Notes under the pieces: generated by a model
Told to the model about the DNA's origin: nothing
Databases searched by the model: none
Seen by the model: only the letters and a program-made list of their open reading frames with translations
Shown: piece by piece, positions 9,403 through 63,700 of the stretch
Layout of the letters: each line of letters starts with the position of its first letter
How positions within the stretch are numbered: the stretch's first letter is position 1
Position numbers and translations under genes: made by a program
Source: Pseudomonadota bacterium
GTDB taxonomy: Bacteria; Pseudomonadota; Alphaproteobacteria; Rhizobiales; MH13
NCBI GenBank assembly: GCA_039024915.1
Contig: JBCCPK010000003.1
Location: 62,001 to 126,000, forward strand
Length of the DNA stretch: 64,000 bases
Reading direction: 5' to 3'

Positions 9403-10671
9403 TTATGAGGACGCTTGTTGAGCCTCGTCAGGATCATCGTTGTCGAGCTCGGCCCGTTCTTCGGCCCGGCGCTTTTCAACGAGTCGCACGCACCAGATGC
9501 TCGCCTCGTAAAGAAGCAGAGTTGGCACCGCAAGACCCACCTGACTTATAGGATCGGGCGGCGTCAGGAAGGCGGCGGCCAAAAAGGTGCCGACAATGGC
9601 GTACTTGCGCTTCTTGGCCAGGCCATCAGCGGTCACCACGCCCATGCGGCCCAGGAGCGTCAACACGATCGGCAACTGGAACACCAGACCAAACGCAAAG
9701 ATGAGGGTCATGATCAAGCTGAGATATTCGCTCGTCCGCGCCATGAGCTGAATGGACGCCTGTCCATCACCCCCTTGTTGCTCAAACGAAAGAAAGAAGT
9801 TCAGCGCGAGCGGCATAACGACGAAATAGACAAGCGCCGCCCCGACCACGAACAGGATCGGTGTCGCAACAAGATAGGGGATGAATGCCCCGCGTTCATG
9901 TTTGTAGAGGCCCGGCGCCATGAACATATAGATCTGGCTTGCGATCACAGGGAAAGCGATGAAGAGCGCGCCGAACAAGGCGATCCGCAGCTGCGTGAAG
10001 AAATACTCCTGCGGCGCGGTGAAGATGAGTTCGAGATCGGAAGCCTCATCCTGGGCTCGGTCGAAGGGGACAAGCAGAATGTTGAAGATCTGATCGGCGA
10101 TGAAATAGCAGCCGATGAACGCCACACCGAGCGCGATGACGGCAAAAAACAGCCGCTGGCGCAGTTCGATCAGATGCTCAATCAGCGGCGCCCGAGATTT
10201 TTCGACTTCATCCTCTTCCAGATCATCCTCGAACGGATCGTCTTCAGGCGGCAAGGTCGAGCCTGCGGCAGCGGAAGCCGGCGTCAGCGACAATGGTTCA
10301 TCAATGGGCGCAGGCTTGCCCACCGTTTTGTTGGGCAGCTCATTGCCCGCAGAGGATGCTTCACCCGTGGTGGCAGACGACGATGCCGCCTTCGTGGTGG
10401 TCCGCCTCGTGGATGGCTTTTTGGTGGTGGCGGCACTTCGGCTGGGAGCCTTCTTGGTTGATGCTTTGCCCTCTGACGCTTTTTTGGCGGAAGGCTTTTT
10501 GGCAGAAGGCTTTTTGGCCGCAGGTTTCTTAGATGCGGGCTTAGTGGCCGCGGGCTTCCTGCCAGATGGCTTGCGCGCAGCGGGCTGGCGGCGAGGTTTG
10601 TCCGCAGCCGCGCTCTCGCCGCTCGTCTCCTGTTCCCCGTTGCCCTGGTTTGGATCGGCTTTCTCAGCCAT
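9403..10671 (-). CDS. tatC: Sec-independent translocase TatC with histone H1-like N-terminal tail
   Basis: TatC is the six-helix receptor for twin-arginine signal peptides. The core (about 160-422) is normal in length and sequence: S-R-A-P-L-I-E-H-L-I-E-L-R-x-R, then F-T-A-P-Q-E-Y-F, and a C-terminal F-L-T-P-P-D-P-x-S-Q block. In front lies a tail of about 155 residues. Residues 25-100 are Lys/Ala/Pro/Ser-rich with K-K-P-A-A-K-K-P-S-A repeats, and residues 142-158 are strongly acidic. The ATG at 10671 overlaps the tatB stop by eight bases, and there is no other ATG before the second half of the core. The tail is therefore probably translated. TatC's N-terminus faces the cytoplasm. Such a tail is not part of the standard family. 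Confidence 0.93.
   Translation of the reverse strand: MAEKADPNQGNGEQETSGESAAADKPRRQPAARKPSGRKPAATKPASKKPAAKKPSAKKPSAKKASEGKASTKKAPSRSAATTKKPSTRRTTTKAASSSATTGEASSAGNELPNKTVGKPAPIDEPLSLTPASAAAGSTLPPEDDPFEDDLEEDEVEKSRAPLIEHLIELRQRLFFAVIALGVAFIGCYFIADQIFNILLVPFDRAQDEASDLELIFTAPQEYFFTQLRIALFGALFIAFPVIASQIYMFMAPGLYKHERGAFIPYLVATPILFVVGAALVYFVVMPLALNFFLSFEQQGGDGQASIQLMARTSEYLSLIMTLIFAFGLVFQLPIVLTLLGRMGVVTADGLAKKRKYAIVGTFLAAAFLTPPDPISQVGLAVPTLLLYEASIWCVRLVEKRRAEERAELDNDDPDEAQQASS
10475..10594. repeat. 15-bp degenerate tandem array inside the tatC tail
   Basis: Eight consecutive 15-base units can be laid out from 10475. Units two (10490-10504) and three (10505-10519) differ only at the last base. On the coding (minus) strand each unit encodes a pentapeptide of the A-K-K-P-S / A-x-K-P-A type. 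The periodicity preserves the reading frame, so the tail could expand or shrink by slippage without harming the TatC core. It is a coding repeat, not a CRISPR or operator array. Confidence 0.8.
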
Positions 10672-46083: not shown

Positions 46084-48702
46084 CTAGCGCAGCTGCGCGG
46101 CTGCCGCATCGTTGGTGAGAACATCAATCGTCACCGCGTCCCAGCCGTTGAGGACGATACCTTCGACGCGTGCCACAGCCCGCACTGCAGCACCCTCTTC
46201 TGCCAGCGCCCGCCGAACCGCATCGGCCTCAGGCTGGGTCACAAAGGCAGCACGACACCCCTCGCCCGCAAGAAACGCGGCCACGCCCTCCGGCTCGGTC
46301 TCCAAAATGAGATCGGTGCGGGTCATCAAAACAAGGCTCGGCTCACGGTAGCCCAGCGTCGCCAATTCAGGATCTGCGCAAACCACGGCATCTAGCGCGC
46401 CCGCCAATTGCGGCGTGATCCATAACGTCCTTGCGCTGGGCAGATGCCCCGCGAACGATCCGGCAAACAGGCACAGTGCACAGGCCACGATGCAAAGGCT
46501 TGCGGCGCGGGCATGACGATGCAGAAGAAAGCCCCATGCGATAAGAGCCAGCAAGATGACCGCGGCCCCGAACGCCGCGCCGCTGGGCGCGATACCATCG
46601 CCCCACTCGGTCAGCAAAAGCGGCATCGCAATCGCAAGGGCAACCGGAACGGCAAAGATCACCAGCTTAACGAGGCCTGCCCAGAACCCCGCAGGCAGTT
46701 TTTCAAACGCCACCATGCGCGCCGCGAGCACCGCCAGTGCCGGATAAAGTGGCAGCGCATAGTGCGGCAGCTTCAGCGCGGTCAGCTCCAACATGACAAG
46801 CGCGGGCACAATCCAGGCGATGAGAAATTTGGTGCCGCGATCTTTCCAGGTACGCAGTGCAAACGGAACTGCCAGCAAGGCAAGTGGCCCAATAGGCCAT
46901 CCCAGGGTCGGCAGTGACACGAAGGTTATGAGACCCGGAAAAAGCGAGGGATCGCCCGGCTCGCCTTCAAAGGCTGCTGCAAGCTCCCGTCCCACCGCCA
47001 CATCGAAGAAGCTGCCGCCTGATGTCAGCGAGATCGCCACAAACCATGGCACCGCCAGAAGCGCCATCCACAAGATGCCGTAGCCGGGCCGCAAGCGGCG
47101 CACCCATAAAAGGCGTCGATCGGCAAGGCTCGCGAAAGCACCGGTTGCCAGGACGATGGCCGGCATCACCGGCCCTTTGACGAGCAAACCGGCGGCCATC
47201 GCAGTCCAGAAGATCGCCGCATGATAAAAACGGACCGCGCTGTCGCGCTTGCTGATAAAGGCACGGGCAAGGATTGCCTGAGCGATGACCGTAAGCGCCA
47301 AAAGGACGGCATCCGTTTTGGCGAGACGTGCCTCTGCCGCAACCAGGATCGTGCATGAAAACAAAATTGCCGCCGCAAAGGCGAGCGGCGGCGGGCCAAA
47401 GCTCAGCGCCAGCCAATACACCAGTAGGGCCGCCAGACCGGCTGCGACCAACGATACCGTTCGGTAAATCCAAACGGGCGGCGCGTCACCCTCAACATCC
47501 GCACCGCTTATGATAAGCGCTGCCGACTGCAACCAATAGATCCCGATTGGCTTGTCGTACCGCGCCCTGTCCTGAAAGCGTATGTCGACGAAATCGCCGG
47601 TAGCCACCATTTGGCGGCTGGCCTGCGCGTAGCGCGATTCGTCGCGATCGATCGGGGGGATTGTCGCAACACCCGGCACGAACGCCGCGGTAGCGATCAG
47701 CGCAACGCACAGCACGGCCACCAGACGCACGCGGGCCAACCCATCGAAAGCGGCGGTCAACCATGCGGCCGGCCGATCCAGCCATCCAAGGCGCTCACCG
47801 ATCCTTTGCCGTTGGGCTTGGACCTGTGTCCGCAGATGCCCAACACCATCGCGCATGCGCGCTGCACCTGCCGCAGAGCTTTCGCGCAGTGATGTTGCTA
47901 AGGCGGCGGCTCGCCCGTCTTCGCCACCAGCCTCGCTTTCATCATGATCATCAGCTGGGACGTCGAACAGATCGGCAGCGTCACCTTCTGCTGGCGCCCA
48001 CAAACCCGCGCGAACAGCTGCGGGTATGCTCAGCCCGGTCTGTGACGAGCTGCCATCGTCTTCGCTAGCCTGCTCTGCGGTAGACTTTGCACTTGCTGAA
48101 GCACGCCTGCGCGGTGCGGTGGCCTTTCTGGTGGACGTTTTTCTGGCCGTCGTGGTGCCAGTCCCTGCCTTCGCGCGCTTGCGTCTGGCGGGCTTTGTAC
48201 CGGCCCCGGTTCGCGACGTGGTGGAGCGGCTTCTTTTGGCTGCCGTAGCCTCGATGCCCTCGGCGCTACCCTCAGCTGCGGCTGCTGCGTCCTCTGACGC
48301 TGTGGAATCGCTTCCCGATGCAGGCGTCGCCGCGCGGGATGATCTGCGTTTAGCGGTGGTCGATTTGGCCGTCGTGCTGCGGCGCGCGGGCTTGCGCCGA
48401 CTGGGTTTGGCCTTGTCGCCAGCGCCCTTGGCCTCGTCTGGGGTTGCGTTCGCGGATGCCTCCCCTGCACCCGCTGCCGCGCTTTCAGCCTGGTTCGGTG
48501 CTGACCTATCGCTTTGTCGAGGCGTCCGGGAAGAGGCTGTAGACGAACGCTTGCGCGCCGCCGCTGGTTTGCGCGTGGCGGTGCCTGTGCGCTTACGCGT
48601 GCCAGTACCAGCCCGACGTTTGGGTTTTTTCTGTCCCGAGCTATCGCCGTCGTCAGATGATGCACCATCCGCATCGTCGGAATCGTCGGGAGGGGAAACC
48701 AT
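46084..48702 (-). CDS. GT39/ArnT-like membrane glycosyltransferase with basic N-terminal tail
   Basis: From about residue 325 the protein is a polytopic glycosyltransferase of the ArnT/PMT (GT-C) type. It has a first membrane helix at about 326-343, then I-D-R-D-E-S-R-Y-A-Q-A-S with the catalytic Asp-Glu (354-355), R-Y-D-K-P-I-G-I-Y-W-L-Q, A-R-L-A-K-T-D-A, and about ten more membrane helices. The core of roughly 550 residues matches ArnT length. In front lie about 320 extra residues. Residues 24-210 are rich in Arg, Lys, Ala, Ser and Thr (K-K-P-K-R-R, A-R-R-K-R-A-K), resembling histone H1 tails, and 235-265 are acidic. The lipid-linked sugar donor and acceptor are unknown. Confidence 0.85.
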   Translation of the reverse strand: MVSPPDDSDDADGASSDDGDSSGQKKPKRRAGTGTRKRTGTATRKPAAARKRSSTASSRTPRQSDRSAPNQAESAAAGAGEASANATPDEAKGAGDKAKPSRRKPARRSTTAKSTTAKRRSSRAATPASGSDSTASEDAAAAAEGSAEGIEATAAKRSRSTTSRTGAGTKPARRKRAKAGTGTTTARKTSTRKATAPRRRASASAKSTAEQASEDDGSSSQTGLSIPAAVRAGLWAPAEGDAADLFDVPADDHDESEAGGEDGRAAALATSLRESSAAGAARMRDGVGHLRTQVQAQRQRIGERLGWLDRPAAWLTAAFDGLARVRLVAVLCVALIATAAFVPGVATIPPIDRDESRYAQASRQMVATGDFVDIRFQDRARYDKPIGIYWLQSAALIISGADVEGDAPPVWIYRTVSLVAAGLAALLVYWLALSFGPPPLAFAAAILFSCTILVAAEARLAKTDAVLLALTVIAQAILARAFISKRDSAVRFYHAAIFWTAMAAGLLVKGPVMPAIVLATGAFASLADRRLLWVRRLRPGYGILWMALLAVPWFVAISLTSGGSFFDVAVGRELAAAFEGEPGDPSLFPGLITFVSLPTLGWPIGPLALLAVPFALRTWKDRGTKFLIAWIVPALVMLELTALKLPHYALPLYPALAVLAARMVAFEKLPAGFWAGLVKLVIFAVPVALAIAMPLLLTEWGDGIAPSGAAFGAAVILLALIAWGFLLHRHARAASLCIVACALCLFAGSFAGHLPSARTLWITPQLAGALDAVVCADPELATLGYREPSLVLMTRTDLILETEPEGVAAFLAGEGCRAAFVTQPEADAVRRALAEEGAAVRAVARVEGIVLNGWDAVTIDVLTNDAAAAQLR

Positions 48703-60411: not shown

Positions 60412-60778
60412 GGCAGCAACCTTCTCAGGCATAGTCGTAAGTTCTGTTAGGGGAACTCGACAAGCGCAAGAACCAAGTTGGCCGTCGCGTCACGATCCCC
60501 AGCGAGGCATTTGCCTAGCGAGAAGCCGACGAGCAACACATCCATGGCATTTTTGCGATGCATCAAGTCCGTTGTTGCAAATGTTTCTCACAAAGCCCCT
60601 AAGGCCGCAATGCGCATAAGGACGCTTAAATTCCCTGCGCAATGCATCCCAACGGAGCCTTGTGGTGGATAAGGCTGCAGGGGCATAATGAATCAAACGT
60701 AAAACAGCGACCATGAAGCGCTGAAATGTGAACAGAATGTCGGGCAGTGTGGTCCGACTGAGGGAAGGAAGCGGACTT
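60412..60778. other. divergent intergenic region between the aminotransferase gene and phaC
   Basis: About 370 bases hold the promoters of the two divergent genes. Two copies of GCAATGC lie 32 bases apart (60606-60612 and 60638-60644), about three helical turns. They could be operator half-sites for a PHA regulator, but the match to known PhaR motifs is not convincing. The phaC ribosome-binding site (AGGGAAGGAAG) lies at 60761-60771. No ORF or RNA gene is seen. Confidence 0.4.
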
Positions 60779-63700
60779 ATGGCGGAAACGGGTGACACCT
60801 CCCCCGGGAAGAAAGGCGCTAGCGCGCGCAAAACCCATAGCGGAAAAGCGCCGCCAAGGACCAATGCTCCTAAGTCTGCCTCGGTCAATGCGGAAATCCG
60901 CGCCAAGGCAGCCGCGGCAGCTCGCGCTGCCCGCCGGGGCAAGCCCAACACGACCGCGAATGCTGCAGGCACAAAAACCAAAGCAGCCCAAGCGAAGGCC
61001 GCTGCCAACGGAAAAGCAAGCGCCACCACCAAGGCCACCGCCAAAGCCAAGGCTGCCGTAACAAAAACGCCAAAAGCGACAGCGGCACAGCGGGCCAAGG
61101 CAACAAAAGTGAGCGCAACAAAAGTGAGTGCAGCAAAAGCCTCGGCGAAGCAGGCCGCTCCGAAGCCAAAAGCAACAAAAGCACCGGCAACCAAAAAGAC
61201 GACAACGTCTGCGACCGCCAAGAAAACGATCGCAAAACAAGCGGCAAAGACGACACAGGCGAAATCTGGGCGCACCACAAAGCCCAAAGCGGCAGCGAAG
61301 CCCGCCGCAGCGTCTGCGCAAGCCAAACGCAAGCCATCACAAACGGCTAAGGCGAAGGTTGAAAAACCGGCAAACGCAGCACCGGCTAAGAGAGCCGCCG
61401 CAAGGAAACCGGCGGCTCAGAGCAAAACCGAAACGACGAAATCGGTAGAGAGGCAAAAGTCGCCCTCCGCACGCAGACGACCAAGCGCAGGGAAAGCGCC
61501 CACGACAAGAGCGACGACCGCCAGGACCTCAGCCGCAAAAAGTCGGGCGAAGCCAACCAGCACGGCCGCCGCAAGCAAAGCTGGCGAAAGCAAGCCGCCA
61601 GCAGTGCGAAAAGCAGCGGCCAAACGTGCTGCTCAACCCGCGACCAAAACGAGTGCGCCCGTTAAGGCGCCCGTGAAAAGGGCTGCAAGCACCAAACCGC
61701 CCGCAGACAAGCGTCGGAAAGTGCCGGCCGCCCCAAAGGCCGAGAAGGCCCCGGCTGCGCGTCGCGCTCAATCCAGACCAGCGAAGCTGCAACCCGAACC
61801 GAGCCCAGCCCCCGCGCCGAAGATGAAGGCAGCACCAGAGATCAAAAGAGCGGAAAAGCCCGTCTCGCAGCCAAGCCCAAAACCAACGGCCAAGGCACCC
61901 CCGCCACCCGAAAGGCCCCTCACCGACTACAGCATCAATGATCCCGATGCTTTTGCCGCGAACCTCAGCAAATATGTCGAAGAGAGCGGAAGGGTTTGGG
62001 CCGCCTACCTGAAGCCACGCGAGGACGGGAACGTCAGGCCGGTGCAGGCCGACGAGATGGGCGAAGTGGTCAAGACGCTCAGCCAGGTCAGCGAGTATTG
62101 GCTCTCCGATCCGAAAAGGTTGGTTGACGCTCAAACCCGGCTTTGGACCGGCTTTTTCGATCTATGGGCCCATTCGGTCTCTCGGCTCAGCGGTGAACCT
62201 GCCAAGCCTGTTGTCGAGCCCTCACCGGGAGATCGGCGTTTCAAGGACCCCGATTGGTCAAGCAACGAGTTGTTCGACACGGTCAAGCAGGCCTATCTGC
62301 TGCTCTCGAAGTGGGCCGAAGGCCTTGTCGATGAAGCAGCTGAGCTGGACCCCCACACACGGCACAAAGCCCAGTTTTATATGCGCCAGATCGCAAGCGC
62401 GCTGTCGCCAACGAATTTCGTGGGCACCAATCCCGAGCTGATCAAGGAAACGCTGTCATCGAACGGCGAAAACCTTGTTCGGGGTTTGAAAATGCTCGCA
62501 GAGGACATCCGCGAAGGTCAAGGCGATCTGAAGGTCAGGATGACCGATACAAGCCAGTTCAAGGTCGGCGAGAACATGGCGACGACACCTGGCAAGGTGG
62601 TGCATCGCAATGACGTGTGCGAACTGCTGCAGTACTCGCCAACCACCGACACAGTGCTCAAGCGACCGCTTCTTATCGTTCCGCCCTGGATCAACAAGTT
62701 CTACATCCTCGACCTGAACGAGCAGAAGAGCTTCATCAAATGGGCGGTGGCACAGGGGCACACCGTCTTCGTGATCTCGTGGATCAACCCAGATGAACGC
62801 CACGCGGGCAAAAGCTTCGAGCACTACATGCGCGAAGGCATCATGGAAGCTTGCGATGTCGTCCACGCCATCACCGGCGAACGGCAAGTCAACACCATCG
62901 GCTACTGCGTCGGGGGGACGCTCCTATCGGTCACCCTCGCCTATATGGCAGCAACAGATGATGACCGGATCGCCTCAGCCACCCTATTTACAACGCAGGT
63001 CGATTTCACGCATGCAGGCGACCTCAAGGTGTTTGTCGATGAGGAGCAGCTGAAGGTTCTCGAGGGTCAGATGGCCCAGAAGGGCTTCCTCGATGGCAAG
63101 AAAATGTCGTCTGCGTTCAATATGTTGCGCGCAAACGATCTGATTTGGCCTTACATCATCAACAACTACCTCAAGGGCAAAAACCCGATGCCCTTCGACC
63201 TGTTGTACTGGAACAGCGACTCAACGCGGATGCCTGCGGCCAACCATGTTTTTTACCTGCGCAACTGTTACCTCGAAAACAATCTGAGCAGGGGCAAGTT
63301 GGTCCTGGATGATGTCAAGCTCGACCTCGCCGACGTTACCGTGCCGATCTACAATTTAGCAGCGCGCGAGGACCACATCGCACCACCGGAATCTGTGTTC
63401 CTCGGCTCGCAGTTTTTCGGTGGAGACGTTCGCTATGTCCTCGCAGGATCAGGCCATATTGCTGGCGTCATCAACCCGCCCAACAAGAAGAAATATCAGT
63501 TTTGGACCGCCGGTCCGCCGCGCGGCCGCTACGAGGACTGGGTCGAACAGGCCAGCGAAACGCCGGGCTCGTGGTGGCCTGACTGGCAGGTTTGGATTGA
63601 GGGGCTCGCACCTGACCGCGTACCCGCGCGCCAGCCTGGTGGCAAAAAATACCCGCCGCTGGGAGATGCGCCAGGCACTTACGTGTTGGCCAAGGCCTAA
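60779..63700 (+). CDS. phaC: Class I poly(3-hydroxyalkanoate) synthase with histone H1-like N-terminal tail
   Basis: PhaC polymerises hydroxyacyl-CoA into storage granules. Residues from about 380 to 973 form a normal class I synthase: N-terminal PhaC domain, lipase-like box G-Y-C-V-G-G with Cys710, Asp865 in R-E-D-H-I-A-P and His893 in S-G-H-I-A-G-V. Ahead of it are about 378 residues almost wholly of Lys, Ala, Pro, Thr, Arg and Ser, with repeats such as A-T-K-V-S and A-K-K-T. I use the ATG at 60779, seven bases after AGGGAAGGAAG; an upstream ATG at 60728 lacks such a site. Comparable tails occur on the granule proteins PhaF and PhaM, which tether granules to the nucleoid, so this synthase may bind DNA itself. 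Confidence 0.92.
61100..61159. repeat. 15-bp tandem units inside the phaC tail
   Basis: Four 15-base units follow each other in frame (61100-61114, 61115-61129, 61130-61144, 61145-61159). The first two differ only at the last base. They encode pentapeptides of the A-T-K-V-S / A-A-K-A-S type, and weaker units continue downstream. The unit length equals that of the array in the tatC tail. Confidence 0.75.

Follow-up and report, generated by a model that had tools for sequence, protein, structure and literature searches.

Whether a polyhydroxyalkanoate (PHA) synthase can fasten its own granules to the chromosome is the question raised by a phaC gene in the stretch of alphaproteobacterial DNA analyzed here (64,000 nucleotides, hereafter the window). 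PhaM, PhaF, and PhaH, all described as tethers between PHB granules and the nucleoid, are separate proteins (PMC13052382). The original prediction for this locus placed tether and polymerase in a single polypeptide, with the basic tail of the synthase as the tether.

An intact class I PHA synthase with a long basic N-terminal tail

The window phaC is a genuine, single uninterrupted reading frame (Table 1), the start of which is supported by GGGAAGGAAG, a purine-rich stretch at 60762-60771, and by an N-terminus shared with the phaC genes of G003 and G002, two other members of the genus, whose frames open only 5 codons 5' of the shared start. A misplaced start codon was ruled out by this conserved N-terminus. 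Profile, catalytic residues, and fold all identify the protein as a class I PHA synthase: TIGR01838 matched residues 443-970 with 780 bits (cut-off, 622.65), the PhaC box reads GYCVGG, the first 15 rows of a fold search were solved PhaC structures (9knj/k/l, 5xav, 6k3c, 5hz2, and 5t6o), a sequence search against solved structures gave five matches, all of them to the same PhaC proteins, and the core was mostly confident in the AlphaFold2 model. Cys710, Asp865, and His893 are the catalytic residues, roles that we take from established knowledge of PhaC, and the enzyme is probably active. The protein ends three residues past the TIGR01838 match, and its long extension is N-terminal, with none at the C-terminus.

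Table 1. Features of the phaC locus (window coordinates)
Feature	Coordinates	Strand	Description or basis
Probable ribosome-binding stretch	60762..60771	+	Purine-rich, 5' of ATG 60779
phaC, class I PHA synthase with basic N-terminal tail	60779..63700	+	973 aa plus stop; one intact ORF
Conserved start element of tail	60779..60811	+	MAQTGDSTPSK in G003, MAQSSDSTPSK in G002
Basic tail, predicted disordered, residues 1-376	60779..61906	+	Net +81, pI 12.0; composition and predicted disorder
Sole helix predicted in tail, residues 34-52	60878..60934	+	AlphaFold2, low confidence
Synthase core, residues 377-973	61907..63697	+	Part used to find and align relatives
PhaC_N (PF07167), residues 485-656	62231..62746	+	Pfam match
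Cys710 in GYCVGG, catalytic	62906..62908	+	Invariant in 35 aligned rows
Asp865, catalytic	63371..63373	+	Invariant in 35 aligned rows
His893, catalytic	63455..63457	+	Invariant in 35 aligned rows

The tail is dominated by a few residue types (fractions: Ala, 0.29; Lys, 0.18; Arg, 0.07; Pro, 0.11; Ser plus Thr, 0.19; Asp plus Glu, 0.03), lacks Phe, Trp, Tyr, and Cys, and has no run longer than 11 residues without a basic one. It is predicted to be disordered, with AlphaFold2 pLDDT below 50 at residues 1-37 and 48-379. A PHA synthase with a fused basic, histone-like tail, as originally predicted, was thus borne out by the single frame, the strong net charge, and the TIGR01838 core. The Ala/Lys/Pro-rich composition also stood, but the "Ala-Lys-Pro repeats" were overstated, since the tail holds one AAKP and a tandem-repeat search found only three arrays, all of them short (20 to 40 bases); the character of the tail lies in its composition, not in a periodic repeat. 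A fresh tandem-repeat expansion was ruled out as the origin of the tail, as the arrays are all short and all four Ala codons are used. Searches with the tail gave no match in Pfam at E ≤ 10 (query, 60779-61915), hence no histone-like profile, and none in the PDB at E ≤ 1. A scan of its own genome at E ≤ 0.01, in which 150 of 358 candidates were scored, recovered the tail alone.

Tail composition within the genus

Among the other members of the genus, an N-terminus could be read in two, and both have a basic tail (190 residues in G003, 204 in G002), giving a twofold variation in tail length within the genus; G001, whose contig starts at the core, was left out of this comparison. Cores within the genus are 81 to 89% identical with dN/dS of 0.05 to 0.07. 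The tails of G003 and G002 are 45% identical to one another and each is 54% identical to the window tail, values that are only rough given the gaps in the alignments, and saturated synonymous sites left dS of the tail uncomputable. The net charge per residue is +0.18 in the genus members and +0.22 in the window, and hydrophobic residues plus Cys and His make up 3 to 5% of the tails. Neutral drift simulated to 54% identity yielded a mean charge of +0.11 to +0.13 per residue and a mean of 13 to 16% hydrophobic residues plus Cys and His. Individual runs attained +0.18 to +0.23, so charge by itself is not enough to reject drift, but the observed 3 to 5% lay below all 300 simulated runs in each of nine settings. 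With simulated drift giving far more hydrophobic residues than observed, the composition of the tail looks to have been kept by selection in the genus.

TatC, encoded at 9403-10671 on the minus strand of the window, has a Lys/Ala/Pro-rich basic N-terminal tail of its own (residues 1-117) and a sub-cut-off match to HC2. This tail carries +18 across its 117 residues in the window, compared with +4 for the G001 TatC and -8 for the G003 one, figures that depend on uncertain start codons; the N-terminus of TatC is long in both relatives too, but not strongly basic. Within the genus, the charge of the TatC tail is not kept, whereas that of the PhaC tail is kept in three members.

Basic stretches elsewhere in the genome

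Of the 110 stop-to-stop frames in the window that reach 150 residues, none equaled the phaC tail in net charge per 150 residues (39; runners-up, 33 to 37, all Lys-poor frames) or in Lys (33, versus 21 for the next). For a wider background we used 864 kb of the genome, made up of 800 kb of sampled stretches and the window, and searched for 100-residue stretches that carry a net charge of +10 or more, contain 10 or more Lys, and have no more than 15 hydrophobic, aromatic, Cys, or His residues. Five of 735 ORFs contained one: PhaC, TatC, a PMT-type glycosyltransferase, a pseudouridine synthase, and UvrB. The window, which was not randomly chosen, holds three of these ORFs, and two of the carriers other than PhaC belong to membrane-protein families. 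Such stretches are rare, yet other proteins of this genome carry them too. Their presence on TatC, UvrB, and others, proteins unrelated to granules, weakens a granule-specific reading, so that the inference of anchoring is not unique, and the phaC tail may stick to any polyanion.

We regard as unlikely, but as the main rival to direct DNA attachment, an explanation in which the tail serves no granule-specific purpose, being a decoration that sticks to polyanions in general or is common to the lineage, and the synthase is one carrier among several. The five ORFs speak for it, as do a Lys/Ala/Thr-rich protein by nuo-type genes, an rplU-type protein with a KAETPKAE linker, and the variable length of the phaC tail. 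It sits less well with the synthase stretch being the most charged of the five per 100 residues, with the diverging fates of the PhaC and TatC tails in the genus, with the failure of simulated drift to give the tail's scarcity of hydrophobic residues, and with the occurrence of the same kind of tail on PhaC of other clades, described below.

Several of these proteins merit description in their own right. The PMT-type glycosyltransferase (window 46084-48702, minus strand, 872 aa) has an Arg/Lys-rich, disordered-looking N-terminus. The protein by the nuo-type genes, which were read by eye, is a 288-aa frame (L238:1255-2121, minus strand, G000 contig C6) that matches HC2 weakly; its Lys/Ala/Thr-rich part is a long linker, and its C-terminus resembles a helix-hairpin-helix. 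The rplU-type protein (L215, G000 contig C4; ribosomal L21 by eye) has a C-terminal HHH_5 match. HC2 (PF07382) itself gave two weak matches in the genome, both below cut-off and neither in the phaC tail.

Comparison with known tethers

In PhaF of Pseudomonas, a helix that binds the granule is followed by a disordered, histone-like tail that binds DNA (PMC5658603, PMC3574117), the free DNA-binding domain being disordered (PMC3574117). A single chain thereby binds both granule and DNA, the arrangement that we propose for the window synthase. As a yardstick, a phylum-wide search with PF05597 matched 65 of 398 genomes at E ≤ 0.001, 43 of them above cut-off; among the 30 loci returned, eight had a long PhaF-like Lys/Ala/Pro tail, and in these eight, the only ones covered by the charge figures, the tails carried +0.19 to +0.20 per residue and 8 to 22 AAKP motifs, against +0.22 and one in the window; some of the remaining loci had shorter basic tails. 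The window tail thus resembles that of PhaF in being Lys/Ala/Pro-rich, disordered by prediction, and of similar charge per residue, whereas PhaF is a phasin (PF05597) and not an enzyme, bears its tail at the C-terminus, and has more AAKP.

PhaM of Cupriavidus necator connects PHB granules with the nucleoid and forms complexes with PhaC (PMC13052382), but it is a separate protein, while in the window the link would be inside the synthase; the accessible part of PMC3556143 contains none of the terms sought for a PhaM tail. PhaH of Caulobacter crescentus is an alphaproteobacterial granule-to-nucleoid tether (PMC13052382) that uses a helix-hairpin-helix domain, a domain to which the window synthase has no Pfam match. 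Both proteins were compared by description. AlgP of Pseudomonas aeruginosa is a histone H1-like protein that spaces granules (PMC9239181, PMC13052382), though these are polyphosphate granules and no enzyme fusion is involved. Its example, together with the expectation that such a polycation should bind any polyanion, lends weight to a quite improbable alternative in which the tail binds polyphosphate or RNA instead of chromosomal DNA and couples PHA granules to polyphosphate granules or polysomes; the closest granule-bound analogue, PhaF, binds DNA (PMC5658603), which argues against it.

A synthase tail as an anchor is not a new idea. For PhaC2 of Cobetia, a C-terminal basic extension of about 380 extra residues, mostly unordered and with weak HC2 matches, was proposed in silico in 2021 as a DNA anchor of the carbonosome (PMC8686332). 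Both proteins are class I synthases with a long basic, mostly unordered extension, but the Cobetia tail is C-terminal with weak HC2 matches and the window tail is N-terminal, free of Pfam matches, and alphaproteobacterial; for these reasons we take the window tail as an arrangement independent of that in Cobetia. In the literature within reach, which excludes most subscription journals, we came across no description of an N-terminal tail on an alphaproteobacterial synthase, nor any experiment testing a synthase tail as a DNA anchor, and literature listings for Chelatococcus and Ancylobacter held no account of such a tail.

Distribution of tails among alphaproteobacterial synthases

Synthase matches were present in 84 of 101 genomes (own and relatives), in 316 of 397 genomes of the order (E ≤ 1e-100), which is probably Hyphomicrobiales judging from named loci, and in 242 of 385 genomes of the class (E ≤ 1e-120). 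The samples read from the order and class were chosen toward long frames, so their counts are not frequency estimates. From the order, 40 of the matches listed were read, 38 of them frames of at least 690 aa; 23 had an Ala/Lys/Pro/Arg-rich N-terminal extension, strongly to barely basic, and the other 17, including G245 with its ambiguous start, were not counted as extended. Long open frames 5' of many relatives looked non-coding and were left out of the tail counts. Net charge in the 32 PhaC tails measured ran from +0.04 to +0.22 per residue, with the window tail the highest of the 32. Among 80 named loci, tails that passed our criteria were found in Ancylobacter rudongensis, A. gelatini (start uncertain), and two MAGs. 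At class level, three of 20 long frames among the matches listed had a basic N-terminal tail and 17 did not; tailed PhaC outside the order were those of G941 (+33 in 136 residues, +0.24 per residue), G525 (+22 in 105, +0.21), and G828 (+14 in 93).

The G941 protein (L224) is of interest as a compact candidate, its short tail being very PhaF-like and containing AAKPAAK. Two further synthases from outside the order extend past the profile match, by 54 residues ending in AAAKPKPPAKAKPKAKK in L233 (G1052) and by 31 residues in L223 (G1009), and may be small C-terminal versions. One of the named loci that point to Hyphomicrobiales, Bauldia litoralis (L072), has a core identical to that of G019, from the same order.

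A tree of 129 synthase cores, built with FastTree, a quick method, comprised 12 tailed and 115 untailed rows plus two unscorable ones (G001 and L126); G078, with an extension of only +5, was scored as untailed. Tail state changed at least seven times with the unscorable rows omitted (eight if both are counted as untailed), counts that cannot tell gain from loss. The genus of the window formed a supported clade (100) within a 70-row branch (support, 95) without any other tail, which makes an independent origin in this genus the simplest account. The 115 untailed synthases of the 127 scored also bear on an improbable explanation in which the tail tunes the enzyme without tethering it, through solubility, dimerization, lag phase, or a charged brush against granule fusion. 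The tail does join the N-terminal region of the synthase, reported to influence dimerization and granule morphology (PMC10867992); such a number of basic residues would, however, seem excessive for tuning of this kind, and the majority of the scored synthases have no such tail.

The remaining PHA system and gene neighborhood

The suggestion that the synthase anchors granules by itself goes beyond the evidence, as the genome also encodes three Phasin_2 proteins (by our reading, short phasins that have no long basic tail), PhaR (PHB_acc_N match), and a second PHA synthase whose N-terminus has no such tail. The genome check for phaF and other phasin genes gave a divided answer: the Phasin_2 proteins were found, while a PhaF/PhaI-type phasin (PF05597) was not, with no match in the genome at E ≤ 0.001 and none in the window synthase at E ≤ 1. 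Four HHH_5 matches in the genome were considered as candidate tethers and rejected, their frames reading as RuvA, UvrC, the rplU-type protein, and NusA, names that we assigned by reading the sequences. The joining of tether and polymerase in one polypeptide is upheld as far as the fusion, the PhaF-like charge, and the kept composition are concerned, and holds only if the tail is a tether.

Genes for an aminotransferase, homoserine dehydrogenase, glpX, and recJ lie 5' of phaC, with the same neighbors in G003 and in G037, a member of another family. On the 3' side a convergent gene (L053:15890-19471, minus strand) encodes a large protein, of GGDEF/EAL type by eye, with an Ala/Pro-rich C-terminus; it has matches beside phaC in G001, G002 (partial, at a contig end), and G003, and none in the G037 stretch.

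A proposed link between synthase and nucleoid

A PHA synthase remains at the surface of its own polymer product. We propose that the polycationic, disordered N-terminal tail of the window synthase would bind nucleoid DNA without sequence specificity, much like the C-terminal tail of PhaF. Each nascent granule would then start on the nucleoid and, because the synthase remains on the polymer surface, stay attached through it, an attachment that would keep granules spread out and shared at division. The fusion, the intact catalytic residues, the predicted disorder, the PhaF-like charge density, the composition kept in the genus, and the similar tails elsewhere are consistent with this proposal; enzyme activity, DNA binding, granule tethering, and a segregation benefit are inferred. 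Counting against a tether are the lack of AAKP tandem repeats and of a histone-like profile match, the many PhaC extensions elsewhere that are mildly basic, down to +0.04 per residue, the second synthase without such a tail, and the large untailed majority in the core tree. Direct attachment to DNA is the most likely reading, with non-specific stickiness as its main rival and the other explanations lesser ones, and we judge the case that an active class I synthase attaches granules directly to nucleoid DNA by its own tail to be evenly balanced.

On a wider scale, we tentatively suggest, with somewhat more doubt than confidence, that in several alphaproteobacterial lineages the polymerase has repeatedly gained a histone-like DNA-binding tail, such that granules start on and are inherited with the chromosome with no separate tether. 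If the synthase is its own anchor, one gene would set how a bacterial organelle is initiated, positioned, and inherited, and if the tail was acquired repeatedly, nucleoid attachment of granules would appear to be favored by selection. Such a tail would also offer a simple handle on granule number and spread in bioplastic strains.
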